Shown here piece by piece: positions 3,001 through 58,758 of a stretch of DNA of 64,000 bases. A model generated the notes under the pieces. The model did not search any database and had not been told where the DNA came from. It saw only the letters and a list, made by a program, of their open reading frames with translations. Source of the stretch: Ulota crispa (lineage: Eukaryota; Streptophyta; Bryopsida; Orthotrichales; Orthotrichaceae); the NCBI GenBank assembly GCA_963920765.1, contig OY987242.1, forward strand, positions 26,684,002 to 26,748,001. The letters run 5' to 3'. A program made the position numbers and the translations under genes. Position 1 is the stretch's first letter. Every line of letters starts with the position of its first letter.

Positions 3001-5723
3001 TATCTCCATAGAGGTGATGAAATTGTGCCCTGCTATCTTCTCTTTCAGTTAGTCTTCCTATGTTCATTGAATGTTCTTGGAGTAATTAAAGTTTTCTGAT
3101 TTTTTTACTAACATCACTATAAGAGACGACTAAGATTTAAAACCTTTTTCATGATTCTTGCCTTGTAGTAGGTTTGTCTATTGTATAGCAGGGATCCGCA
3201 CGTGGGGTTGGGTTGAGAGTGACAATATGTTGGCACATTAAGAAACACCCCGCTTGGTTAATAATCATTTCCAAACTAAGTAGTCCAATGGGTGTCAAGT
3301 AATGGGTGACTATCCGTCACCCAAATTTTGATATTCAAAAACTTAAGTCTAAAATATCAAAGGACGGTGAAAGGTCATAAACAAGTGAAGGGAGAGGGAG
3401 AGAAGAAAGCAGGGAAAGGTAGGATGAAAAATCACCTAAAAAATCATTGAAAAGATTAAGAGTAACAATGCACAATGTGCGTTCAAGGCATACTTGTTTG
3501 TGAGAAAAAGGTTTGTTGTTCAGTAAGGGAGGCACCATTGAACAAAACTAAACAAAGCTATGTAGTTTTTCCAACTAAGTGAGGAGCAAACCAAGGTTTT
3601 ATGAGATTTTCTCAAGAAGGGAGACCACTGTGGTTGGGAATATTTCTCCAGGATTGAAACGAGTCCTGTTATACATTCCTCAATCAAATCAATTTACACC
3701 TAAAATTTTCAACCCCAATTTTTCATTTAATACCTAGTATGATGTCATAAAACACTAAGGGAACAATTCATGTGTAAAGAGGTTTAACCCTTAAACGACC
3801 AATTGACCATAGTACGTAGTGTGTACGTTGCTATATATTGGTATTTGCTACCAACAAAAACTTGTAATTTGGGATTTTGATTAGCTCACTAGAACCGCAT
3901 TTCTATATTCTAACTTCTTTATTGATCTCAAATGTAATAAAGGTGTAGATGCAATCCAAATACAAGAAATATACATCATATTGTACTTTGTACTATGGTT
4001 GGTTGGTCATTTAAGGGTTAAACCCAACATAAATGTCACATGAACAAAATTCTCTACATTTTTTATTGTCCTTATACTTGTGAACATAACAATGAAAATT
4101 GCTGAGTGGTATGACATTTAGTAACGTGAATCTTGCCAGCAAAAAGGACACAGCGGCAATATTTTCTTCCATCAATGTTTACGCAAGTAAAAGCCTCACG
4201 CATTGGCCATCCCATTGCGCCAGTGATTACTCGGGCTCCATCCTTGTTCCTATCTCATCCTTGTTCTCATTGTCTTAAACGTCAGAACGCCTTTGCGTGA
4301 GACCGTTACCGTACACATAACCTTCAATTTCCTCGGTGTATGTGCAGGTGGGTGGTAGCGCAAAGTGTATTCTACCATTTGTACAACCAGGTGTCCTACA
4401 TGTCCCTCAACGAGATTTCGCCGCTCACCTTCAGCATCGGTAACACCATGAAACGAGTGACCGTCATCGTCTCCTCCATTATCATCTTCCACACCCAAGT
4501 CCGGCCCATCAACGGTGTGGGTGCTGCTATTGCCATCCTCGGAACCTTCTTGTATTCCCAGGTATGTTTTTGACCCTAAATATCACAACAAATCTTGCAC
4601 TGCTTGTTAAATACCCTTTGTTCGTAGCTTTTCAACATGCTCGCACTGGCATGGTTTGACCTAAATTTGAGCAAGAAGTCTCAAATAACAAGCTCCTTGT
4701 TGGTTCTCACTAGTCTGCTGTCATATTTGTTATACACCTTGCTGTGATTCCAGTACTTGAGGTGGATTATAGCTCATTAGAAGCACATTCTCAGTAATAT
4801 TTTCACAAGACGTTACTCTAAAAACATTTGGTTGAGAAAGGAATATCTTGGTACAAAATTGAGTGCAACCATTGTTTGTTTGCTGGCTGCCAAGGGCCTT
4901 AGTTGTCTACCCTTAGTTCAAGCACCATTTCCATGAATAGTATTTGTGATGTTTTTAATGCTCATAGTGCAAAATCTTTGTAGAGAGAGGATTTGCAACC
5001 AACAACCCCTTTTGTACGATTTTGTGGCCTTCCATTTTATGCATGGGTTTTGATGACGCCAACCAATACTTGCACATAGAGAGACTTTGAAAAAGAGAAT
5101 CAAATCACTGTCAACAACAACATCAGATTTTTAGAACTAGAGTTATGTTACTCTTGTAGATACTAAGGTAGTGTGCTCTAATTGCGTTCATGCTCTAATT
5201 GCGTTTGGGTTTAGGAACAAGAGATATTTTAAATGAAATATCTATGACTGTCATTGATGAGTTAGGTAGGCTTAGCAATATGCTAAGCCTACCTAACTCA
5301 TCAATGACAATCGTAGACATTTCATCTAAAATGTCTCTCATTCCTAGAGCCAAATGCAATTAGAGCATGAATGCAATTAGAGCACACTACCTTACTTGTT
5401 CCATTTCAAAAGTCAAATGGCCAAGAAGGTTTCAGTTGCTAAACCCCGTGTTAAGTTTTATGAACCTTGCCAGGGAGGGATTTGCAACTGGCAACTTCTT
5501 TAAATGTTTTATACCATGCCTTGAAGGGAATGGTGTTTATCAACGTCCTCATTTGTTATAATGAACCCAAACTGATTTCTCACTATACATGGGTTCTCTT
5601 AACAGAAACATTGTTTTGTAGGGATTTTCATTAGTTTTTTCCGGTGTTCCTTAAGTAAAGTGCTTGAGATGTCAGTGTTTCTAACCAGAGGTTTTTTTTG
5701 ACGTTGTGCAGGCGAACCAGTAA
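74..5723 (+). CDS. GPT: plastid glucose-6-phosphate/phosphate translocator, 5 coding exons
   Basis: Exons 74-607, 1515-1740, 2500-2725, 4348-4561 and 5712-5723 join in phase (0, 1, 2, 0) with GT-AG introns and give 403 residues, close to the usual ~390. It is an inner-envelope antiporter importing glucose-6-phosphate into plastids in exchange for phosphate, for starch or the oxidative pentose phosphate route. Residues 1 to about 100 are rich in Ser, Thr and Arg, as in a transit peptide. The triose-phosphate-translocator fold (drug/metabolite transporter superfamily) follows from about residue 108 (KIGVYFATWWALN). GPT-type blocks include HTIGHVAATVSMSKVAVSFT in exon 2, FVFRNIFSKKGM in exon 3 and QSVFYHLYNQVSYMSL with NTMKR in exon 4. 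K364/R365 match the phosphate-binding Lys-Arg of the family. The first ATG in frame is at 74. The frame stays open to the window edge, so an upstream start cannot be excluded. The last exon encodes only Ala-Asn-Gln before the stop. Confidence 0.95.
3784..4021. mobile_element. TTAA-flanked piggyBac-like MITE, ~230-bp class, copy 1
   Basis: The element starts with CCCTTAAACGACC at 3788 and ends with its imperfect complement (TTAAGGG at 4017). It is flanked on both sides by TTAA (3784-3787 and 4018-4021). It lies in intron 3 of the translocator gene. Two relatives occur near 14253 and 52040, sharing the internal block ATTTGCTACCAA and a stretch reading AACTTCTTTGTTGATCTCAA or close to it. A TTAA target with CCC termini is the signature of the piggyBac superfamily. 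No transposase is present. Confidence 0.7.
5164..5394. repeat. foldback MITE of the TAAGGTAG family, in translocator intron 4
   Basis: Nearly the whole 231 bp is one inverted repeat. It opens TA-AGGTAGTGTGCTCTAATTG, turns over at about 5280 (AGCAATATGCT), and closes with the complement CACTACCT-TA. A close relative with different outer ends lies at 58527-58758 and shares the core GGCTTAGCAATATGCTAAGCC (split by two extra bases there). Transcribed within the intron, it would fold into a hairpin of about 110 bp. Confidence 0.8.
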
Positions 5724-11113: not shown

Positions 11114-12816
11114 TAAGGTAGGCACACCCATCAGTGATCACCTCCCAGTACCGTACTCTAGTTTTTGGCTGTTCTCCACCCATTGTTGAACCTAAAATGG
11201 GGCATTAAATGTCACTTGCACAAGCAAATCTTGCCATATGATATTGTTAGCCCCTAGACGTCCAAGGGGTAAGGGCAAAACATAGATGTATTATAAAATA
11301 ATATTTATGTAACTTTGATGAAGTTTGCTTCAAAAGAGAAAACAAGAATCATGATGTCTAGTAATTATCCATATAGTCAAACATTCAAAAAAAGTTTTGG
11401 ATTTTTATTTAATGAATTTAGAAGCATTTACCATTTAATATTCACCAAAATTACAAATTTTATGTGGGTAGCTGCAAGAAACACTTCACAATTTTGTCTC
11501 AAACACCCTTAAAATTGGTAGTACTAGGTAGTACTATGAGCTTTTGAAATATATATTTTTAAATAAAATAAAATATGGAAAACTTGTAAAGCACTTAAAA
11601 TAGCATACTTGTGAAAATTTAAACCTAGAAAAAATTTATTCTAAAAGTTATGCACAAAAATAGAGGGATAGAAATTACCAACAAAAAGGCAATTTCCTTT
11701 TTATTTTTTAGAAAGTAGTAAAAAAATTCAAAAAAATAAAACAAAAAATGGCCATTGGTGATCATTTTCATTACCATGGACTGATGCAATTGATTGTCAA
11801 AAAAAGTTTTTGACCTTGCACTAGTGGAGGGAGACAAGTTGCTCATTTTGAGTGAATGGCCAGGACAAAGAAATAGGAATTTTCCAAAACTAGTCTATAA
11901 ATACCTATAACTCTTACTCCTTAACAACTACCCTCATTTGTGGCCCTAAATTCACATTTTACGACTCAATGTAGTATTGAAAATCCCCAAAACAGCAAAA
12001 GTAGACAAATTATCTAAAACCCAAAAAAAATACAACAATAATTTTAAAAAATGCTTAAAAATTAGTGAACGTATGCAACTTTGATGTTCATGTTGCCCTA
12101 AAATTTCAGGTCAAAAGGTCTTTTAAAGCAAAAGATACAACACTAAAACATGTTGTTGAGGTAATAGGGGACAAAATGTAGTACACCCGTTTCTTGCAAT
12201 CACCCATGCATAGATTTTAAAATTTGGTACGATTGGTTAAAAACAAACATTTTATCGTAAACTTCAAAAATGCAATCTTTTCAAAGGAGAGAACATCATT
12301 AGTTTCCCAAAATAGTAAATTTTACAACACTATCAAATATTGAAGTGTTTGTTTTTGAAAAATTCTCCTCGATGGAGTTGAGCTTGGATTGACATGATTC
12401 AAGTTCTGTTGGAAAGTAGACTTGATTTTCTATTACAAAAAAAAAGTTTTTTTTCAAAAAGCTTTTTTTTCAAAAAGCTTTTTTTTCATCTCGGGCAGCC
12501 CGCAAAATATGGGCAGCAACCAGAAAATGGTTGATTGAGCGCTTAGGGGCTGTTTTGAGGCGGTTGGGAGTGGGACCATCTTGTGCCATTATAGGAACAC
12601 ATCCAAGCACTTTCAAGGGTGGTCTAGAGTTGCCTTTAGGATCTTTTGAGTTGAAACTTTGCCATTTAATATAAAATATTCTACTTTTATCCACAAAAAT
12701 TATGTTCCTTGATAGCTTGTTGAAAGGCTAACCCTACGGGTTTTTTTTCCGGAATTTTCCGAGACCTTGAGATGCCCCAAAACCTTGAATGGTCGGGTAT
12801 AAGTGTGCCTACCTTA
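11114..12816. mobile_element. 1.7-kb TAAGGTAG-family element
   Basis: TA-AGGTAGGCACACCC opens it and GTGTGCCTACCT-TA closes it. It is the longest TAAGGTAG-type copy in the window. The interior is AT-rich with poly-A and poly-T runs and no reading frame resembling a transposase, so it is a non-autonomous or heavily decayed copy. Confidence 0.55.
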
Positions 12817-34710: not shown

Positions 34711-34908
34711 TTATAAGTAGTTGGCTACGATCTGGACACTTGTCGAAGGAGAACTTGAGCTGTACTTTTTTAACCTGTTAAATAATATTTTAGTTCTTGG
34801 TGAGGCAGCCCGAAGTATCACCAGAAGAATAGGAACCAGAATAAAAGAGAAAGAAGGAGCACAAATAAAGGCCGGCATGGATGTATGACCAATCACAATA
34901 AAAAAAAT

Positions 34909-35221
34909 AGGGAAAATTTCATGGATATTCTTGAAGTTTGCAATATTTTCATAGAAATTTCTGTTTTTTTTTAAATATCACAAATACCCTTGGACCAAAA
35001 AATTAAGCGCTTGTTTTGTTGTGCATGTCATTTCCATTCTTTCTTTGTACACACACATAACAAGAAAGAGATAGTGTGCGCACAAAGGGAGAGGAAGTGA
35101 CATGCATAACAAAACAAATGCCTAAGTTTTTTGGTCTAAGGGTATTTGTGATATTTCTGAAAAAGCAAGTGCATCTATGAAAATATTACAAACTTCAGGA
35201 GTATCCATGAAAATTTCCCTA
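34909..35221. mobile_element. 310-bp palindromic MITE (GGGAAAATTTCATGG family), copy 1
   Basis: Both ends read GGGAAAATTTCATGGATA into the element and the arms stay complementary for about 140 bp, down to a centre around the microsatellite-like GTACACACACATAACAAG. Three more copies lie in lipoxygenase introns (39357, 40444 and 42879). Confidence 0.85.
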
Positions 35222-35236
35222 AAAAACAACCATACA

Positions 35237-36752: not shown

Positions 36753-37165
36753 TAAGGTAGTATGCTCGAAAACCGCCCATCTAAAGGCTCATCCCTCTTT
36801 TCATGGTCTTCCGTGGATGGAAGGATTTTTAGTTCATTTTTCAGACAAAGAGAAATAGATGCTGAATGCAACATAAGTTGTTTCATATTTTTTGAAGCAT
36901 TTTTGAGTTACTTATGAATTCTCAAAGTGCATGTGTTATAGGTGCCTATTATTAATTTTAGACCTTCCAAGAACCGTTCACTTGCAAGTTGTGAAGAGAT
37001 TTGAGGAAGCAAGGAGAATGATTGGCTCTTGCAATTAAAAACAAATTTTCTTCCATGCATTCAATGAGTTGTAAGAGGCTAATGTAAGAACCACAAGTGC
37101 ACCATTTCACAACAAGTTACTGGATGGTTCAAAATGAGCAAACGGTTTTTGAGCGTACTACCTTA
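36753..37165. mobile_element. TAAGGTAG-family MITE, TATGCTC subtype
   Basis: TA-AGGTAGTATGCTCGAAAAC to GAGCGTACTACCT-TA with a 413-bp non-coding body. Confidence 0.65.
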
Positions 37166-38434: not shown

Positions 38435-38768
38435 AGAGCATCTTCTACAACCTTTCAAATGTTCAAGTCCCTTTGATTTTTGGATGATAAGCAATCAATT
38501 CTAGTGTGTGTCAACCTCTACATTTACTTTCCATTTTCAAATAAGCCATATTTGAAGTAATTTCTAAACCCTCTATAGCTATATTTTCTCTTGAAATTAG
38601 CAGGTTGTCATAGCTTACTTTATTGCTTTAAAAAATCCTTGACTTGTGATTGATTGACACTATACTTAATTAGTTGCATTATTGGAGATACAAGTGACCA
38701 TCCCTCTTAAGTGGATAGAGAGGAATTAAAGGAATCTACGTAGTTGCAGGGTTGCACAAGATGCTCTT
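38435..38768. mobile_element. AGAGCATC-family MITE, copy 2
   Basis: TTAGAGCATCTTCTACAACC to GGTTGCACAAGATGCTCTTA. The body is the complement of the copy at 27407. Confidence 0.7.
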
Positions 38769-39137
38769 ACAGTACACCAACAGCCAGTTCTCTCCGTACA
38801 TTGCCCTTGGATACTACAAACATAAAGAGATCCAGACAAGAATATACTCTTACGTCCATTTCAATCCTCGTATCAATAAAACCTTTGACCAATCTAGTAA
38901 AATAGAAACTACGCTCAGTAGAAGAAAAAAAGGTGGCAACTTGAGGTATCTCAACCTACTAGCACTGTAGACTCGGACTCAAACGTGATCTCTAGAACAT
39001 CTACCAGTAATAATTTGCAACATCTTTCAACAACTCTTGCTTGCAACATCCAAACCACGCAATATTTGATACATTGGAATTCTCTGTCAAAAAAGAAAAA
39101 AAACTGGGGGAGAGGGAGGGTTCCAATGTTCCATGCC

Positions 39138-42100
39138 TCAGATAGAGATGCTGTTGGGAATGCCGCGCATGGTGATCCCGGCGTCCGATTTCTGCAACAA
39201 TAGCTGATACGGCAGCGTCCCCGCGCCAGTTCGATGCGGGAGGGCCAAATCCGCATTCCGTTGCTGAATCGTCTTGTCCACTTCCGCCAACCTGAACAAA
39301 TATCCATTGTAATTGGCAACTTTCAATTATACTTGCAAAGTACAGAGGTAGACTTAAGAGAATTTCATGGATACCCCTGAAGTTTGCAATATTTACAGAG
39401 ATACCCCTGTTTTTTAAGAAATCGCACAAATATCCTTGGACCATGATTTTTTTATTTGTTGTGCTTGTACTTCCTTCATGGCTAATGTTGAAAAAGGAAA
39501 TATAATGAAACAAAAAAGAAGCAATGTGCACGCAAAGGAAGAAGGGAAGTGACATGCACAACAAAACAAACGCCTGAAAATTTTAATCCAAATGTAGTTC
39601 TCTAATTTCTGAAAAATTAGTGGTATCTATATAAATATTGCAAACTTCAAGGGTATCCATGAAATTTTCCCCATCCTTAAACACTAAAACCCTGAACCCT
39701 AAACCGCTTGTGTGCAATCGAGAAGTTGAGTTGGGTTGACTAAAAATGCCATACCTTGCCGAGAAGGCTTTGAACGCGTGCACAGCGCGGGCATCAGAAG
39801 TCCAGTTGGTGTGCATGCCGTTGTAACCGAGGTACTCTTCGTCCGGCGAGTGCGTGGACAGCGACTCCACCACCATCATCAGCACCGTCGCTTGCTCTTG
39901 GCTGGGCAAAGTCTCCAGCATCAGTTTCTCAGGGTCTCGCAGCAGCGTCTCGAAGTCGGGATCGCCGGGCTCCGGCACGAGGCGGCGGGAGAGGCACGGC
40001 TTAAGAGGTAGCAGCACCCATAAGCGTCAAACTACGGAGTTTTTAGAGCAGGGAAAATCAATTGATGAACTTTGAAAATAATATGGTCAAATTAGGAAGA
40101 GGAAATCAAAGATATTGGCATTAATTTCAAAGTTTCAATTGCAAGCATTTGTTTACAAATATTTTTCAAAGTTCAAAATCACTAAAATTGTATAGTTGTG
40201 TAAGAGAAGCTAAAAACAATGTTTAATGGTTCTTAAATAGTGAGCAAGATGGGGCACTTAAAATTATCACTTTAGTCACCCAAAACCACCACTTTGTTAC
40301 CCACAATCATCACTTCATCACCCATAACCATCACTTCCTCACCCACAACCATCACTTCCTCACCCACAACCATCACTTCCTCACCCACAACCATCACTTC
40401 CTCACCCACAACCATCACTTTGTCACCCATAACCATTTGATTTTAGGAAAAATTTCATGGATACCTTGAAGTTTGCAATATTTTCATAGACACCTTTACT
40501 TTTTCAGAAATATCACAAATACACTTGGACCAAATTTTTTAGGCGTTTTTTTTGTTATACATGTCATTTCCTTCTCCCTTTGTGGGCACACTACTTCTTT
40601 CTTGTTATGCATACACACAAAGGAAGAAGAGAAGTGACATACACAACAAAACAAACCCCAAATTTTTTGTTCAAGAATATTTGTGAATTTTTTGAAAAAA
40701 CAAGGATATCTTTGAAAATATTACAAACTTCAGGGGTATCTATGAAATTTTCCCTTGTCAGTCCCTAATACTGTCAACTGACGCCCATGAGGAACATGAC
40801 AGAGATGGGTGTTGCTACCTACCTTATTAGGGACGAAGCCCGCGTAGTCGTACTGACCGAAGTTCACGGCTGCGTGGTGCCCTGACGCGACCCAGATCAT
40901 GGTGGTCAGAATGTGCACCAGCGACTCCGGAGTGGTGAGCATCGGCCACCAGGGCTCGTCTTTCTTGTCGGGGTGGCCCTGGGTCTGAATCTCCGTCCAC
41001 CATCGCCGGAGCTCAACGTCGGCGAGGATGGTTTCAGCGTCCGGGTAGTAGAGAGCCACGTAATCGCGGCACCATTGCTCGATGGCGTCGTAGACGAGCA
41101 GCCCGTCTGCCGCGTACGGGTAGTCTTCGATTCGAAGGCGGACTCCGTGAGGCGCGGTGTTGTCTCGCACCGCCATTCCTCTGCAAAAAAAAGCGTTACA
41201 ACTATTCAAACTGACAGCATACAGGATCTTTTGCAAGTTCAAATTTCTGGTACTAGTGGAGATTCATGATGACTGCACATAGGCTGTATATATAGACGCT
41301 TGAGGTCAAAAAAAAGGCAGGGAGTCATTGGCTTTGAGCAGCAAATTCTACCATAAACCTCAAAACCATATTGTGAAGCAAGCTCTTTATGAATATAGGC
41401 ATGATCAACATATATTAAGTAGTAGTACGATGCTACAAGGGATTTGAACTCCCAAAGGGGCTCTGAGTTTTGTTGTTCCCAATATTGGGAACCAACTCCT
41501 ATTAGTCGTCAGAAAAATTAATTAAAAAATAATAATAATAATAAAAATACAAAAGTCTTAGAAAAAAATAAGAAATTTTTTGAATTTCTTTTTTTTTGAA
41601 TTTTTTGTTTGAAAAATAATAAATAATAAAATAATACAGGCTGACATGGTCGCCCTAATGCCAGCATGGCCTGCAACAGACTACCCATGTGAAAGGTGTT
41701 CCCAAAATTCTTATGGATTTAAGGGAAGGGGCCTCTTTGGGGGTTCAAATCCCTTGTAATGACTCTTCAATATGTTAAATTTGCATTGTAAAAAATCTTC
41801 AAAGTCTAGAATATTCATACATTTCAAGAGTGCCCAACAAGAGTGTCCAACTTCAGGCATGCTACACCACAACCATATCTGCAACTAAGGTTGTATGTTT
41901 GAATTGCAACTCTCTTCAAAGTGTTCCTATAATTAACTCAAAAATGGATATGAAGTGGTCCTTGAATAGACCTTGTTAATCATTAAAGAAAAGGTGTAGT
42001 CAATTGCAAGAGCCAATCATACTTCTTGATTTCCCCTCATCTCTTTATAAGTTGCAAGTGAACAAATTTTGAGAGACCTATAGGTCATGAATAAGTTCTT

Positions 42101-45100
42101 ACAACTACAAAAAAAACTTTGAAAATTTATCAACAATTCAATAATACTTTTTTTAATATGTAAAAAAATTACGTTGTACTTGACATCTATTTCTCCTTGT
42201 CTATACAAAAAAGTCTTCCTGCTTTGAAAAGCCCATGAAAAGGCAAACCAGCCCTTAAAGAGTCAGACTACCTTACAGCGTTTATTAGAACCCATTCTTC
42301 TTATGGTGTGATGAATTATGGTAAGGATTAAAAATCCGGAAGGCTGAGAGAGTGAGAGAGAGAAAAAAAAAGTACCTTCGGATGAGGTCTTCAGGTAAAG
42401 ACTCTTTATCGAACCGCCAGAAGAGACCGTAGACCTCAGAGCTCATCTGCATAGAATACTTGCCCGGCGTGAAGGTGCTCTCAATTACGCCGCCAGCAGC
42501 AATGAGGTTCTGTCTGGCGGAGGCATTGATTTCCATGGTGTACCGGAAGTGCGGGTGGAGGAGCTTGGCAATCGGGTGCAGCGCGCTCAGCTGCCGGTAC
42601 GTCGCAATGATGTACGGCTCCGTGCATGCGTGAGTACGCAACCTGTCGAGAACACAAAATGCTCACAATCCTGAGCTCTCAACACAAAAGGGCAAGTAAT
42701 TCCATAATTTCAAAACAGCCGAAATGTGATGTTGCATGTGTCAGTGGGTTCAAAAAATAAAAAGCCAAACTTGAACGGAAGAAAGGACGAGTATGGCACG
42801 CACAGGGTTTTTTTTTTGGCAATTAAAGGCCAATTGCCTCGGAAAAGAAAAAGGTGAGCTTTCAAGCTTATAGAAAAAAGGGAAAATTTCATGGATATCC
42901 CGGAACTTTACAATATTTTAGATATTCCTGCTTTTTCAGAAATTCTACAAATCTTCTTGGACCAAAATTTTCAAGAGTTTGTTTTGTTGTGTATGTTATT
43001 TTTCTTCTTTCTTTGTGCACATGCATAACAAGAAAGAAGTAGTGTGCGCACAAAGGGAGATGGAAATGACATGCACAACAAAACAAATGTCTGAAAATTT
43101 TGGTCTAAAGGTATTTGTGATATTTCTGAAAAAGCAAGAGTATCTATGAAAATATTGCAAACTTCAAAGGTCTCCATGAATTTTTCCCTAGAAAAAAAGG
43201 GAGAAAAAAAAAAAAAAATGCCCGATTGCAATAATGAAAATTGCATTGCAACCTAGGCTTTCATAAAATCCTTATCAAATTGAGAATTGATGTCATTGTT
43301 TTATGCTGAGAAAGATCCAAAAGCACCATCACCATCGACAAAAAAGTTGATTGTGACAGCTTCTTAATTTCATTATTAATAGCCACTATGCTGCAAAGTA
43401 GGGATAGAGCCAGCAAGCTCCAAATCATTTTCAGAGAATGCCACACAGCCATTGGTCAGAAAACCAGAAAAATAATTCGTGGGCGCGCGTACCAGTGGCT
43501 GACGAGTTGGTGGTAACCAGAGTCGTTAGTGCAGGCGTGCAGCTTGGCGAGCTGCCATAGCCAGAAACTGGTAGCTTCATTCCCTGGCGTGAACACACGC
43601 TTGCTAGCACTAGCACCAGGCGCAGGTGGCGGCAAGCTCAGCTCAATGGCAATGGGCCGTAGTACCCCGTCGCGGTGCAAGAAAAACAACGTCCTTGTGG
43701 CGTAAGTCTTCCGGCCCTCCAGGGCGTTGATTCTGGCCACATACGGCAAGAACACATCGTGGTAATCCACAATGAACAGCCTCTTCGCCTCCACGGCCTC
43801 CGCGACTGTGAACCCATCCAGAAAATCTTCAATATGCTCGGGCTTGATTGCCGACTCCTGGGAACCGAACTCCTCGGGATTCAGTGCACTTCGAGGTGGG
43901 AACTCCTGCAACAGAAAACCAAACGCTTACTCAATCAACGTGATCTCATTGCTTTGAATTGGCAGGCGTGGTATAGCTCATTAGAAGCACATGTTCAGTA
44001 GCTCTCCAGCAAGATAATCCCTCTGTCCCTCTACCAACGTCCAAATCAGACACATTTCTTGTACCACTAAAAAAAATAAACTCCCTTTTGCTGATTTCAA
44101 ACGTTGAGAAAGCATTTGCCATGTTCAAATGATCTCATGGGTGTAAGTTAAGCAATTAGAGAGCATTTTTCTCCTAGCAAGCTTGACCTTGCCCATGTGA
44201 GGTATCATTGTTGTTACTAATCTTTAAATCATCAATAATGAGGAGCTGGCAACATATCCAAATATGATATATTTTGCATGAAATTTGGGTGCCTAAACGG
44301 CGGCATCAAAACTGGAGATTTTGCATACACTTGGTAGATGATATTATACTGATTCTAGAATGTATGTGTCACTGGCACAAAGACTAAAAACATAGTAAAT
44401 CCTTTCAAGAAAGTTTTTTGGACGTTTTTAGGGGCACAGAGGAAGTATCAATCAATCAAAGGATTTGGTAGGTAGAGAATCATGAGCACAAAATCTGAGT
44501 TGGAAATCTGACCTCAAGGCACGAGATCACAAGCGGGTTAACACCCGCCAAAACCTGCCTCGCGAACTCGTCGTCACGCATCCACGCAAACCGGTCCTTG
44601 GAAAGAATCCTCGGCAGCGGATACTTCAGCAAGCTCGTGGGAGTGGTGCTGGACCGAATCAGCTCCCGGTAGTAGTCGGGGATCGGGAGGGCGGCGAGAA
44701 AGCGGTTGCGCTCCTGCGACATCTCCCCACCTGCTGCAAGCTCCTTCTGCATGAACTCAGGAATCATGGCGCTTCTTTTTATCCCTCCTGGCATGGCGAT
44801 TCCTTCCTGGTACAATCCCTCGATGTCACGAAGACTGTCGAACTCTCCAGGGGTTGCATCGAAGTGATCCCGAATCGAGGGGACCACTTTGTGCACCAGA
44901 CCTCGGAGCTGGTTGGCGGCGAAGTTGGTTTGCTTGATCTGTTCGAAGGACTCGTCGCGCGGGACGTACACCGCTTCTCCATTCTCCACCTTTTCCTCTT
45001 TTGTCGCGTCTGGAACACAAGCATACACGTCAAGTCAGAATCGTCTTGGATCAAACTGAAGGGTTTCACAGATTTGTGGCAGAGCTTTCAAGAGGCTCAT

Positions 45101-47121
45101 CCCGAGGTGACAAAGATTGCGGTAAAGAAGTTGTGATTAGAGCAAGTAAGGAAGCGACACCCCTCTCCTTGAGTGTCCCCGCTTACGGGCCAGATTCTGT
45201 GTGAGTGATTGCCAGATAAAAAAAAAATTGGTTATGGGTGATAAAGGGATGATTTTGGGTGACTAGCATGACGGTTTTGAGTGTCCCCATCTCAAAATTT
45301 AAGAATTTCTCAAGTTTTAGTATTTTGAAGCATATAAGCACACAATTTTAGTAAGGGTTGTTTTAGCATCTCCTACATACAACTATACATTTCCAATGAT
45401 TTTGGACTAAAATCTTTATGAACTAAGCTTGCAATTGGATCTTTGAAATTTGATGCCAATATTTTTGATTTCCACAATGTTTTTTTCAAAGTTCATCAAT
45501 TGATCTTCTTACTCCAAAATCCTTAATTTCACGCTTTTGGGTGTTTGCTACCTTACCAGATTTACAAGGACTGCGGCCGGTGCGAATGCGGCGAGGGTAG
45601 GGAAACAGAGTCCCTCCAAGAACAAGGCGAGTTAGGTCAGCTTTCTTGTCAGGATCACCGAGGTCGTTGTAGAGGGCGTAATCATAGACGCGGTCCCAAC
45701 TCTTGCGCTCGCCGTGGCCATGCCCTCGCAACGTGCTTAGCTCCTGTTCTCGTAAATCCTCAAGTCCTGCTGGAGTCTCCCATGGCAAATACACCTAAGG
45801 TAGCAACACCCATAAGTGTGAAACGAAGGATTTCGGAGTAAGGAAAATCAATTGATAGAATTTGGACAAAAAAAATATTTTCAAGTTAGCAAGCAAAGAG
45901 GAAAACCAAAAACATTGGCATAAATTTCAAAGTTCCAAGTTACAAGCATTTGTTCACAAAGAATTTTTCAAAATCCAAAATCACTAAAAAAAATACAGTT
46001 TTGTGTAGGAGAATGGTGCTAAAAACCAATGCTTACTAAACTCTTTAGTGTGTTCATACATACTACTAACTTGAGGAGTTCTTAAGTAGTGATTTTTCAA
46101 AAGTCCAAAATCACTAAAAATGCATAGTTGTGTGTAAGAGATGCTAAAAACAATGCTTACTAACGCCTTTAGTGTGCTCATACCCTCATAATACTAACTT
46201 CAGAAATCCTTAAATAGTGAGATGGGACACTCAAAACCATCATGCTAATCACCTGAAACCACCACTTTGTCACCCATAACCAATTTTTTTTTATCCATCA
46301 ATCACTGACATATATAGGCAGCGCCAATGGGGACACTCACGGAGACCGGTGACGCTACCTTAAGCCAAAACAGACCAAGAATGACGAGAGCAAATCAGCG
46401 ACCACAGCCTGAAACCATCGCTATGGTCATCCCCTGGTGTTCGAAAGCACAAAGTTCGGCGTAAGCTTACCTTATTGCTGAAAAACACGCGGGGATTGGG
46501 ATCATGAACAGACGCCGCAATGTACGAGTGACAAGGAAAATACACCGTCCCAGAACGGAGCTGCAAGGCGATCGACTCCAGATAAAACTCCGCTTGATGC
46601 CCGTTGCGGATCAAAATAGCGCCCGGCTCTCCAAACTCTCCTCCGAGGCTAAACTCCGCCGTGTACTGCACCTTGTTAGCTACCACTCCCGCCTTCTGCG
46701 CCCAATCTCTGATCGAAGCCTCTTTACTCCGCTTCCCCACTCCGGTAACGGGATCCACGTCAGCACTCACAAGCTGGAGGAACACTTTGCTGCCTGTCAA
46801 GTCGGAGACTACGTCCACCGAATTAACCATTTGCTCGTCGCGGCTGAGGCGCTGCTTTCGGACGATCGTGATCACGGCTGTCACGGCAACGGCAGAAAAC
46901 TTTGGATTCGGTTTGGCTATGGCGGATGTCGCACTGCCATTTCTGTCGGTAGTGGTGGTGATGGACGTTTTTGTATCTGTCACCCGATTCGTGATTAGGA
47001 CCCTTGCGTGGCGGCGGTGTGCGGATAGTCCCACACTGCGACGCCGCCTAAATGCCGTTCCTCCGCTCCATCGTGTCAGTTCGCTCAGAGCTCTCACTGG
47101 TGCCACCGAGGCTTGTGCCAT
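39138..47121 (-). CDS. LOX: plastid 13-lipoxygenase, complete, 8 coding exons
   Basis: Exons 47121-46471, 45794-45557, 45009-44513, 43905-43493, 42642-42376, 41180-40823, 39999-39755 and 39291-39138 join in frame with GT-AG introns and give 940 residues, a normal length for a plastid LOX. The enzyme adds oxygen to linolenic or linoleic acid, feeding oxylipin and jasmonate-type pathways. Residues 1 to ~60 are Arg/Ser-rich (transit peptide). The PLAT domain spans about 75-215 and the catalytic domain follows, with YPRRIRTGR. All iron ligands are present: H599, H604, H791, N795 and terminal I940 (ending RGIPNSISI). The H-X4-H-X17-H-X8-H signature is intact at 599-631. T656-F657 at the position equivalent to soybean LOX-1 T556-F557 argues for 13-specificity. 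Six of seven introns contain a MITE and three splice sites or pairs coincide with element ends (see findings). It looks functional. Specificity is inferred. Confidence 0.95.
39357..39672. mobile_element. 310-bp palindromic MITE, copy 2, in LOX intron 7
   Basis: AATTTCATGGATACCCCTGA to the complement ending at GGTATCCATGAAATTTTCC. It makes up most of the 463-bp intron and as RNA would form a long hairpin between exons 7 and 8. Confidence 0.85.
40264..40437. repeat. 21-bp minisatellite inside the intron-6 element
   Basis: About 7-8 head-to-tail units of CATCACTTCCTCACCCACAAC with one or two variant units at each end. Single or double units of the same motif occur in the sibling elements near 46255 and 51045, so the array expanded from an internal motif of the family. 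Confidence 0.9.
40444..40755. mobile_element. 310-bp palindromic MITE, copy 3, nested in the intron-6 element
   Basis: GGAAAAATTTCATGGATACC to GGTATCTATGAAATTTTCCC, inserted within the TAAGGTAG-family element, hence younger than it. Confidence 0.85.
41434..41760. mobile_element. MITE in LOX intron 5, ends with a tRNA box-B-like motif
   Basis: TACAAGGGATTTGAACTCCC is complemented at the right by GGGGGTTCAAATCCCTTGTA. The termini pair over about 28 bp. The centre is an AATAATAATAA-rich run. The right end contains GGTTCAAATCC, identical in form to the internal box B of tRNA genes. Confidence 0.75.
42879..43190. mobile_element. 310-bp palindromic MITE, copy 4, in LOX intron 4
   Basis: GGGAAAATTTCATGGATATC to CTCCATGAATTTTTCCC, with the same internal order of blocks as the other copies (CTTGGACCAAAATTTTC, GCACATGCATAACAAGAAAG). 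Confidence 0.85.
45148..45555. mobile_element. TAAGGTAG-family element at the donor of LOX intron 2
   Basis: Left end TAAGGAAGCGACACCCC, right end GGGTGTTTGCTACCTTA. Read on the gene strand the right end is the intron donor (CTG then GTAAGGTAG). The body is a copy of the family seen at 45796 in opposite orientation. Confidence 0.8.
45796..46362. mobile_element. TAAGGTAG-family element at the acceptor of LOX intron 1
   Basis: TAAGGTAGCAACACCCATAA at the left, GGTGACGCTACCTTA at the right. On the gene strand its CTACCTTA plus one G forms the acceptor before exon 2. It holds an internal direct duplication (AATCACTAAAAA, TAGTGTG(T/C)TCATAC) absent from the other copies. Confidence 0.8.
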
Positions 47122-47346
47122 GGCCTAGAAGCTCGGATTTCTCGTCAATCCAAGGCTAGAGAATCTTGTTTCGCAAAAACCTGTCCAAATTGACACGCCT
47201 AAACTGACTAAATGTGTTTAAAATGACAAAACAAAAAAAACGTCCACTGTATCAAAAAAATGTCCAAATCAACAAATCCAAATGACAAAAAACTGTCCAA
47301 ATTGACACTGTTCCCTTCTTCTGAATTCCTCTCTAATCAACGGATA

Positions 47347-47757
47347 ATGCGATACGGGGTGTCAGAGCTTGGCAAGTCCCGAGGACACTGGATTGCGAGA
47401 CTGGGTTCTGCGATTCTCAACACACAAAAACAGTTCAAATTCTGGCAAGACTGGGTATTTGGAATCTCTTCGTCTTTGAGGCAAGGAATTGCTCAAGTTT
47501 GCGTCAAGGTAGGAGCTGTGTGTGTTCGGCTTCAAGTACTGGTGTTTGCTACTCTCCGGAGGTTGGATTCTACTGCTGCCACTGCAACAAATGAAGTGGT
47601 GAGACAATTTGATCTAGTTCAAAAAGGAGATAGACACTTGGATCAAGGTGAAGGCGGTGAAGGTGCGATCCTTGTACTGTCCAGACACACTCTGTCGTCG
47701 TCGGTGTTGTCAATGCGGTTCTACCGTGGAGGTACTTGGATACATGCGCTTGGCTAG
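47347..47757 (+). CDS. small divergent ORF, 136 residues, unrecognised
   Basis: It starts at an ATG 226 bp from the lipoxygenase start on the opposite strand, so the two could share a promoter region. The predicted protein (MRYGVSELGKSRGHWIARLG at the start) has a stretch rich in Val, Leu and Ala around CVKVGAVCVRLQVLVFATL that might be a membrane helix. A donor-like CAAGGTAGGAG at 47504 raises the chance that it is only a first exon. The base composition is close to coding, but no family is recognised and the ORF may be spurious. Confidence 0.3.
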   Translation: MRYGVSELGKSRGHWIARLGSAILNTQKQFKFWQDWVFGISSSLRQGIAQVCVKVGAVCVRLQVLVFATLRRLDSTAATATNEVVRQFDLVQKGDRHLDQGEGGEGAILVLSRHTLSSSVLSMRFYRGGTWIHALG

Positions 47758-48113
47758 TTTGGGTCTGCAGCGACTGCGACAGGGGAACAGGCTTCTTGTC
47801 CGTGTGGGCCTGTGGGGGAGAAGTGAGGTGTGCGGAAATTTGGGGAGGAGTTGTATTTGGAAAAGTGGAGAAAGTGGTAAGGGCTCAGTTATTGGGCTAC
47901 TGCTCACACGTGTTTGTGGGCTTCCGTGGAAAATCTCAGATTTTCCATCTGGCCGGAAAAACCTTCGAGTTTAGAGACTCATCATCAAGATATTGAAATT
48001 TGGGAATTTTTGGATTCATATTTGGATTTAGAGACTTGATTTCATGTGGTGATGCGAAAGGAGATAGAATTGACCAACTTCAAATTAGGGTCATATCTTT
48101 ACTTTTATGTACA

Positions 48114-48658
48114 AGTATACTACCCGTTGTATCAACGAGTTTATGCCCCCCACCCCTATCCCCGTGCTCCCCGATCCTTGTGTCCCCATATCATCGTGCA
48201 CTCTATCCCCTTGTCTCTATCCTCATGCCCCCTTATCCCCGTGCCTTTTCATCCCCCATGTCCTCTATCCCCGTGCCCCCATATCCTTGTGCCCCTTTTT
48301 CCCCATGCCCCCTTATCCCCGTGCCCCCTTATCCTCGTGCCCCCTTATCCTCGTGCCCCCTTATTCCAATACCCCTTTATTCCTGTGCCCCCTTATTCCA
48401 GTGCCCCCTTATCCCCATGTCCTCTTTTGGTTAAGAGAAAGTTGTGGAGCAATTCCAGTGACGGTGTAACTACCAATGACTTGTTGTTAATGTCTAGTGA
48501 AGCACATAAAAGAGAGTCATAGGTGATTTTACTTTATCCATTTATGCCTTTTTGATCCCAGTCATGCCCAAACCGAACTTATGCCCGACTCTAACTAATT
48601 GAATGCTATTACATGATAGGCCCTAATTGAGTGACGGCTATTCTTTTATTAATATAGA
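48114..48658 (-). mobile_element. Helitron-like unit 1, with minisatellite
   Basis: On the minus strand it begins TCTATATTAATAAAAGAATAG at 48658 and ends with a stem-loop (AACTCGTTGATACAACGGG) followed by TAGTATACTTG. A 5' TC and a 3' hairpin a few bases before the end are Helitron hallmarks. Between them lies an array of 16-bp units (CCCCTTATCCCCGTGC on the plus strand, 48140-48425). No RepHel ORF, so it is non-autonomous. Confidence 0.6.
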
Positions 48659-48918
48659 CTAGTATACTACCCGTTGTATTGACAGGTTTATGCTCCCTAT
48701 CCTCATGCTCCCCGATCCTTGTGCCCTCATATCACTGCGCCTTCTATCCCCGTGCCTCTATCTTCGTGCCTTCTTATCCCTGTGCCTCCTTATCCCCGTG
48801 CCCCTTTATCCCTATGATCTCTATCCTTGTGCCCCCTTATCCCCATGCCTTATCCTCATGCCCCCTTATCCTTGTGCCTTCTTTTGGCCGAGAGAAAGTT
48901 GTGGTGCAATTGCCAATA
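48659..48918 (-). mobile_element. Helitron-like unit 2, truncated
   Basis: Its 3' end reads CAATACAACGGGTAGTATACTAG on the minus strand (in parts) and is followed directly by the TC of unit 1, so the two are head to tail. CTAG is the expected Helitron 3' end. The 5' portion is lost at the junction with unit 3. Confidence 0.6.
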
Positions 48919-49512
48919 TACTACCTGTTGTACCAACGGGATTATGCCCCCACCCCTTATCCCCGTGCCCCCTATCCTCATGCCCCCTATCCTCGTGCCC
49001 CCTATCCTCGTGCCCCCTATCCTCGTGCCCCCTATCCTCGTGCCCCCTATCCTCGTGCCCCCTATCCTCGTGCCCCCTATCCTCGTGCCCCCTATCCTCG
49101 TGTCCCCTATCCCTATGTCCCCTATCCTTGTGTCCCCATATCCCCGTGCTCCCAATCCTTGTGCCCTCATATCTCCGTGGCCTCTATCCCCGTGTCCCTA
49201 TCCCCGTGTCTCTTTATTCCCGTGTCCCCTTATCCCCATGCACCCTTATTCTTGTGCCCCCTCATCCTCGTGCCCTCTTTTGGCCAAGAGAAAGTTTTGG
49301 TGCAATTGCCAGTGACGATGCAACTGCCAGTAACTTGTTGTTAATGTCTAGTGAAGCAGATAAAAGAGAATCATTGGTGATTTTACTTTATCCATTCATA
49401 CCTTTTTGATCCTAGTCATGCCCAAACCTAACTTATGTTTGACCCTAACTGATTGAACACTATCATATGATAGGCCCTAACTGACTGAAGGCTATTCTTT
49501 TATTAATATAGA
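48919..49512 (-). mobile_element. Helitron-like unit 3, with near-perfect 15-bp array
   Basis: The 5' end TCTATATTAATAAAAGAATA is at 49512, preceded by A as Helitron insertion between A and T predicts. The 3' hairpin is CCCGTTGGTACAACAGG at about 48927-48943. The segment 49260-49500 parallels 48425-48655 of unit 1. Confidence 0.6.
48960..49130. repeat. 15-bp minisatellite, about 10 copies
   Basis: Near-identical head-to-tail units of GTGCCCCCTATCCTC. Because 15 is a multiple of three, all frames stay open and give spurious Pro/Tyr/Arg or Pro/Leu/Ser repeats. Confidence 0.9.
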
Positions 49513-50786: not shown

Positions 50787-51172
50787 TAAGGTAGGTGCAC
50801 TCATAAGCATGGAAATAAGGATTTTGGAGTAGGTAAAACAATTGACTAACTTTGAAAAAAATATTGTAAGTTAGGAAATGGAAATAAAAAATATTGGCAT
50901 CTTTTTCAAGGTTCCAACTGCAAGCATTTGTTCACAAAGATTTTTCAAAGTCCAAAATCATTGAAATTGTAAGAACCATATGTAAGAGATGCTAAAACAA
51001 GGCTTGTTGGTTCTTAAATAGTCAAAACCTCATGCTAGTCACCCACAACCATCACTTCATCATCCATAACCATCACTCGCTCACCCACAACCAATTGATT
51101 TTTTTTTTATTAGCCCTGCCACTGTCAGGTGATGGCCATGGGGATACATCGCTTATGGATGCTGCTACCTTA
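50787..51172. mobile_element. TAAGGTAG-family element, intergenic copy
   Basis: TA-AGGTAGGTGCACTCATAAG to GGATGCTGCTACCT-TA. It shares body and right-end blocks with the LOX intron 1 and 6 elements, including two units of the CACCCACAACCATCACTTC motif and CACTGTCAGGTGATGGCCA. It is a useful unspliced reference for the intron copies. Confidence 0.8.
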
Positions 51173-58526: not shown

Positions 58527-58758
58527 TAAGGTAAGAGGTTCTAATTGCAATCAGGCTCTAATTGCAATCAACTTTAGGAACATGTGACATTTTGCAATAA
58601 ATATCTATGATTGTCATTGAAGAGTTAGTAGGCTTAGCAATATATGCTAAGCCTACCTAACTCTTCAATGACAATCATAGATATTTGTTGCAAAATGCCA
58701 CATGTTCCTAGAGCTAATCGTAATTAGAGCCCAATCGCAATTAGAACCTCTTACCTTA
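58527..58758. repeat. foldback MITE of the TAAGGTAG family, sibling of the one at 5164
   Basis: TA-AGGTAAGAGGTTCTAATTG to CAATTAGAACCTCTTACCT-TA (in parts), folding at AGCAATATATGCT. The inner 130 bp match the translocator-intron copy (TAAGCCTACCTAACTC, CAATGACAATCATAG). Confidence 0.8.

Follow-up and report, generated by a model that had tools for sequence, protein, structure and literature searches.

The window, a 64,000-nucleotide stretch of the genome of the moss Ulota crispa, carries a complete lipoxygenase (LOX) gene on its minus strand, from position 47121 to 39138. In our hand-made gene model the gene comprises eight exons that encode 940 amino acids in an intact frame, and all of its introns (7/7) begin with GT and end with AG (Table 1). 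The predicted protein matches the Pfam families Lipoxygenase (PF00305, E=1.6e-297) and PLAT (PF01477) and ends in SISI, with the C-terminal Ile present, and so shows both domains and the terminal residue by which plant lipoxygenases are recognized. Its best named relatives are proteins of the moss Ceratodon purpureus (P0124, 79%; P0122, 69%). An Rfam search over 38500-47500 gave no match reaching the gathering score, that is, no non-coding RNA was seen in this interval. Past the 5' side of the gene, at 48000-49400, short repeats with PYPRAP-like frames follow one another in a long array.

Table 1. Positions in the window of the LOX exons, of intron 6 and its parts, and of related elements in introns 1 and 2. 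A slash marks a boundary in the sequence.
Feature	Position	Strand	Basis or remark
LOX exon 1	47121-46471	-	hand-made gene model
LOX exon 2	45794-45557	-	hand-made gene model
LOX exon 3	45009-44513	-	hand-made gene model
LOX exon 4	43905-43493	-	hand-made gene model
LOX exon 5	42642-42376	-	hand-made gene model
LOX exon 6	41180-40823	-	hand-made gene model
LOX exon 7	39999-39755	-	hand-made gene model
LOX exon 8	39291-39138	-	hand-made gene model
LOX intron 6	40822-40000	-	823 nt, phase 0; donor AATAAG/GTAGGT, acceptor CTACCTCTTAAG/CCG
Transposable element	40004-40824	-	821 bp including nested repeat; starts AGGTAGGTAGC, ends GCTACCTCT
Left TIR core AGGTAGCAACACCCAT	40820-40805	-	sequence
Right TIR core AGGTAGCAGCACCCAT	40006-40021	+	sequence
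TA, target-duplication copy in exon 6	40825-40826	-	sequence; TA inferred from three other copies
TA, target-duplication copy in exon 7	40002-40003	-	sequence
Host AG, 3' splice site of intron 6, directly after the exon-7 TA	40001-40000	-	sequence
Nested foldback repeat in element	40445-40755		311 bp; blastn within window and inverted repeats
21-bp minisatellite, 7.7 copies	40276-40436		Tandem Repeats Finder
Same-family element in intron 1	45796-46362		own TA and host G form the acceptor (CTACCTTAG/GTG)
Same-family element in intron 2	45147-45555		at donor TA (TCTG/GTAAGGTAGC)

Intron 6 coincides from end to end with a single element bounded by terminal inverted repeats (TIRs). On the donor side (minus strand, 40828-40810) the gene reads AATAAG/GTAGGTAGCAACA, or in longer form AATAAG/GTAGGTAGCAACACCCAT, and on the acceptor side (minus strand, 40017-39997) it reads GTGCTGCTACCTCTTAAG/CCG, also written ATGGGTGCTGCTACCTCTTAAG/CCG. 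The initial annotation had placed both splice sites of the intron in the inverted ends of one element, and this is what is seen: the two TIR cores are inverted copies of one another, identical at 15 of 16 positions, and the two ends of the element are AGGTAGCARCACCCAT in inverted copies. They are not alike in their outermost bases, where the left end has an extra GTAG and the right end reads AGAGGTAG in place of AGGTAG. The ends of the family are also written AGGTAGCARCACCC. The element thus bears the signature of a DNA transposon (TIRs and/or a target-site duplication, TSD). Given a duplication of TA, every base of intron 6 falls within the element, and splice boundaries and element boundaries agree to the base; in the Introners discussed below, the splice sites likewise coincide with the element's boundaries or are recruited there. 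With the same TA duplication, the letters AATAAGCCG (Asn-Lys-Pro) spell both the site before insertion and the mRNA after splicing, which upholds the earlier claim that splicing rebuilds the empty site.

The description of intron 6 as a whole transposon is accurate in that the element fills the intron from one end to the other, but the element is not a simple one, since a 311-bp repeat and a minisatellite lie inside it. Using blastn within the window, copies similar to the nested repeat were found at 42878-43201, 39358-39671 and 34908-35224, and shorter stretches matching the minisatellite were found within an element at 50787-51172. Without the nested repeat, the LOX element measures about 516 bp. 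Foldback repeats of ~310 bp are present in LOX introns 4, 6 and 7 and once more near 35 kb.

With its TIRs, TA borders, short length and many copies, the family to which the element belongs is a large, TA-duplicating family of miniature inverted-repeat elements (MITEs). In the window the terminus TAAGGTAG is present 16 times; shuffling gave a mean of 1.4, and in no shuffle (0/100) was a count of 16 reached. Across the 275-Mb genome, the terminal 20-mer TAAGGTAGCARCACCCATAA has 10,926 matches with at most two mismatches, compared with one for a reversed control. The right end of the LOX element (261 bp) has 39 further matches at 85-89% among those listed, which number 40 with the LOX copy itself, 40 of 2,378 first-look candidates having been scored. 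The 87-bp left end is matched at 35 more listed places, at 80-93% identity (36 including the LOX copy); in 12 of these 35 cases there is a listed match to the right end at most 1.5 kb away, on the opposite strand in all 12, giving spans of 396-586 bp. The 30 copies that could be paired, in the window and the loci fetched, are 296-802 bp long; the TA at both of their borders is partly there by construction, because the patterns used to find them contain the TA. Repeats with the same TAAGGTAG terminus and other interiors are also present in the window, at 5164-5394 and 58527-58758, at 11114-12816 and at 36753-37165; since they differ inside, the terminus is common to several families.

The length of the target duplication was assessed by joining the flanks of individual copies through a single TA and comparing them with other loci, for which six alignments were printed. 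Counterparts with one TA were found for three copies (L085, L041 and L028), whereas the counterpart of L064 has TT, L094 aligned with a further copy of the element and the alignment of L046 was poor. We prefer TA as the duplication because, for the first three, the uninterrupted counterpart that the flanks match contains just one TA. For the LOX site itself we infer the same duplication, as the initial annotation had proposed; here the other copies favour TA, while TAA or TAAG would yield an identical empty site.

The intron is missing from homologues of the gene. Of the other LOX loci in the genome that match the terminal part, none has an intron at this site (absent in 8/8): seven cross it in one matched block, and the eighth, which has two stop codons inside and is probably a pseudogene, also spans it. 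The site residues at these loci are PNHP, PQHP or PHHP. A LOX-like locus with internal stop codons, at G000:C1:20037824-20038698, is probably a pseudogene. Compared as proteins, the eight database sequences nearest to the LOX protein (P0001-P0008, 68-88% identity) likewise read through the site without a break, with PNKP in P0001 (84%), P0003 (82%) and P0006 (88%), PNQP in P0002, P0004, P0005 and P0007, and PNHP in P0008. Among 240 listed proteins, the site motif is NRP in 205, NKP in 11, NQP in 8, NHP in 5 and TRP in 1, the pattern being unmatched in 10. Hence the observation that the initial annotation had named as speaking against an origin by insertion, an intron at the same position in other plant LOX genes, was absent from all eight loci and all eight closest relatives within the searches run.

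The extent of P0006 also bears on the site. This 200-aa sequence runs from the Met of GMAV, where exon 6 starts, to FSAR, where exon 7 ends, with PNKP unbroken, and so looks as if the flanking introns exist in its gene and intron 6 does not. By pattern, a start at the same Met is found in 69 of 120 listed hits (the best 120 of 571). The protein search takes candidates of 138-439 aa, and open reading frames cut at the site would be ~119 and ~132 aa long; since candidates shorter than 138 aa fall outside the search, it proves uninterrupted exons in relatives and leaves room for an intron elsewhere. A control search with exons 2-3 returned 17 proteins, 15 of them covering 51-68% of the query. In the ten of these 15 that were printed (P0241-P0250), the start falls within exon 3 or a little ahead of it; some of the ten continue past SCLE into non-homologous residues. 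Introns 2 and 3 are therefore visible as breaks in the open reading frames of the control. The longest contig is of equal length for P0002 and P0245 (12,363 bp, jgi), and likewise for P0007 and P0250 (32,914 bp, ena), which suggests that each pair comes from the same genomic contigs.

These observations can be accommodated by one mechanism. A non-autonomous TIR element (MITE) would have targeted the TA of ...CCT AAT AAG CCG... in an uninterrupted LOX exon. Starting with AG-GTAG, the element would create the left junction AATA-AG/GTAGGT and so provide the AG that ends the exon as well as a good GT donor, and the right junction would become ...CTACCTCT-TA-AG/CCG, where the host AG behind the second TA would serve as the acceptor. 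Both junctions, AATA-AG/GTAGGT and -TA-AG/CCG, are present at the locus, in line with the claim that the element brings the exon-end AG and the host AG turns acceptor. Removal of intron 6 would restore AATAAGCCG exactly, and because the spliced product equals the empty site, the protein would have kept Asn-Lys-Pro. The mechanism would require a sense-strand TAAG that is not read with TAA as a codon; the orientation of the element should not matter because both of its ends are alike. We consider it probable (roughly 0.86) that a transposon inserted into a LOX exon in this way and became intron 6, a birth already put forward as a candidate in the initial annotation and now supported by the eight intron-less LOX loci and the eight closest relatives. 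The direction of change that we infer at intron 6 is thus gain.

Such a birth presupposes that intron 6 is spliced in the cell, which the intact and conserved frame downstream of it implies. Reading through an unspliced intron 6 would meet a stop 30 codons on, short of the C-terminal Ile. In P0001-P0006, identity is not lower 3' of the junction than 5' of it (after versus before: P0006, 74/82 and 101/118; P0001, 116/132 and 96/119; P0003, 110/132 and 94/118). It is slightly lower after the junction in P0007 (0.70 versus 0.71) and P0008 (0.67 versus 0.69), and clearly lower in five more distant sequences (0.49-0.53 versus 0.60-0.63). The donor AAG/GTAGGT agrees with the plant consensus at 8 of 9 positions and ties with the best among the six other donors of the gene. 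The alternative that the insertion was disabling, leaving intron 6 unspliced or poorly spliced and the LOX gene in decay, draws on the early stop that a retained intron would impose on the protein. Against it stand the whole 940-aa frame, the GT-AG boundaries of all seven introns and the equally good conservation relative to P0001-P0006 after the junction. Moreover, the element is an aged one, about a tenth diverged from its relatives (right end 85-89% to the 39 listed, left end 80-93% to the 35) and containing a nested repeat, yet the sequence downstream is still without a stop or frameshift. We therefore regard a disabling insertion as very unlikely.

A further alternative starts from an older intron at the site, next to whose donor or acceptor the element would have entered, the remaining old intron then being deleted. 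Insertions at the edges of introns do occur in the same gene, where elements of the family lie in introns 1 and 2 and the host sequence left in these introns amounts to ~111 and ~140 nt. In intron 1 the acceptor TTAG/GTG abuts the end of the element; without the element this intron would measure 111 nt and end in GGCTTAG. The donor of intron 2 reads GTAAGG now and would read GTACTT in its empty form, so that the insertion may have strengthened it; since intron 2 is common to relatives, its element represents an edge insertion and not a birth. Splice-site TAs make up ~6 of the 211 TAs in the empty form of the six other introns (the 6 counted by eye), and the location of both element hits in introns 1 and 2 (2/2) at such TAs is suggestive, as a post hoc observation with n=2. 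Elsewhere in the genome, at L048, a family element sits inside a GTAAGTG-like donor of an unnamed gene (empty site CAGTA/GTAAGTG), which also lends some weight to an entry beside an existing splice site. At intron 6, however, neither the eight other LOX loci nor the eight closest relatives have an intron, a GT donor is lacking from the empty site AATAAGCCG, and the leftover host intron would have to have been deleted exactly. We regard a pre-existing intron that the element later overran as very unlikely, and reject it on these paralogues and relatives.

Birth of intron 6 by insertion into an exon raises the question of how often the family has done the same elsewhere. Element ends with zero mismatches at TAAG targets number 85, and 70 of these loci (L028-L097) were fetched. 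No further exon insertion was recognized in the 70 fetched of 85 perfect-ended TAAG loci, a survey of perfect-ended copies, whereas the LOX copy itself belongs to the older, decayed ones. A recognizable partner end is present in 65 of the 70 loci (none in L036, L049, L054, L055 and L074). Scoring covered 67 element rows with a partner, among which the element of L041/L042 is counted from both ends in both loci and a few partner ends, with 4-5 mismatches, are doubtful. Peptides of at least 45 aa that cross a junction numbered 27, and Pfam was run on 10 of the 27. Matches above the cut-off were ZF-HD_dimer at L052 and Oxidored_q6 (NADH-ubiquinone oxidoreductase 20 kDa) at L039; matches at L086, L083 and L053 were weak and under the cut-off. 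L052 was rejected as an exon insertion: the frames differ on either side, as a short host intron from AAG/GTTGTG to CAG/GTG would explain, and the element looks like an insertion inside a short ordinary intron of a ZF-HD zinc-finger homeodomain gene. L039 was also rejected, the element being read as lying within the intron that precedes the conserved exon.

A true Introner family would be one in which the same element had made introns in many genes of the genome. The thousands of copies, the termini that give AG/GTAG and CTACCTTA, and the three splice-site contacts in the LOX gene alone point in this direction. Against this, no clear exon insertion was found in the 70 loci fetched of 85 perfect TAAG-target ends, and both loci with Pfam hits above the cut-off, from the 10 of 27 peptides run, read as insertions into ordinary introns; we regard such a family as unlikely. 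Of similar introns in non-homologous genes, of which an Introner family has at least four, one was found, that of LOX, and the same 70 of 85 ends added no recognized exon birth. The birth of the intron proposed in the initial annotation is supported; the word introner in its strict sense, of many similar introns in unrelated genes, is not established, a single exon insertion having been found. Because no second exon insertion was recognized, the name of an Introner family is not yet warranted.

The origin of new spliceosomal introns is an old question, and introns made by transposons are on record from algae and fungi and from a small number of animals. In plants, maize Ds and other elements are spliced from mutant transcripts, at or near the element ends. 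Ds resembles the LOX element in being a plant DNA transposon in an exon that is removed by splicing. It differs in that it concerns mutant alleles, the products of which are often imprecise, whereas in LOX the product equals the empty site, the element is aged and the gene is intact. In its structure, the LOX family is like the Tc1/mariner or Stowaway-type MITEs, which likewise have TIRs, TA borders, lengths of a few hundred base pairs and thousands of copies, although its terminus AGGTAGCARCACCCAT is presumably not that of Stowaway.

Introners are described in Micromonas, Aureococcus, Symbiodinium, Chrysochromulina and others (Gozashti et al. 2022, PMC9860276). That survey, which covers 3,325 genomes, places Introners in only two groups among animals and land plants, both of them animals, and reports no evidence of them in land plants (PMC9860276). 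Like intron 6, Introners stem from non-autonomous TIR DNA elements that give rise to an intron when they enter an exon, and splicing leaves the length of the mRNA unchanged, as is predicted for intron 6 (PMC9860276). The Chrysochromulina type of Fig. 2C in that work, in which the 5' splice site is carried by the element and the 3' site is co-opted, is the same as that of the LOX element (PMC9860276). There are also differences: at least four similar introns make an Introner family, compared with one intron here; Introner duplications are 3-9 bp long, compared with an inferred 2 bp (TA) here; and the survey found none in land plants, whereas the host of the LOX intron is a land plant (PMC9860276). 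Intron gain in MSH1, mosses included, is the subject of a paper that in its excerpted text cites Introners and reports no transposon-made intron (PMC10487979). In a partial coverage of the literature, no report of a transposon-made intron in a land plant was apparent from a title or the start of an abstract. As far as we have seen, then, the kind of event is known and the host group is new, with a single case documented.

With termini of AG/GTAG and CTACCT-TA, the family would be splice-ready: any TAAG on the sense strand of a coding exon, except one read as a TAA codon, would take an exactly spliced insertion, and the element could also be absorbed by existing splice sites (GTA donors, TTAG acceptors). 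It is possible, though doubtful, that this MITE family in a moss represents an Introner-like system, which would be the first one in land plants, and that its older copies include more births. An empty site that can be spelled out, an intact gene and thousands of sister copies make the question of intron origin testable in a plant. The exonic TAAG sites that were hit could be counted, and it could be asked whether the spliceosome or selection decides which insertions survive.
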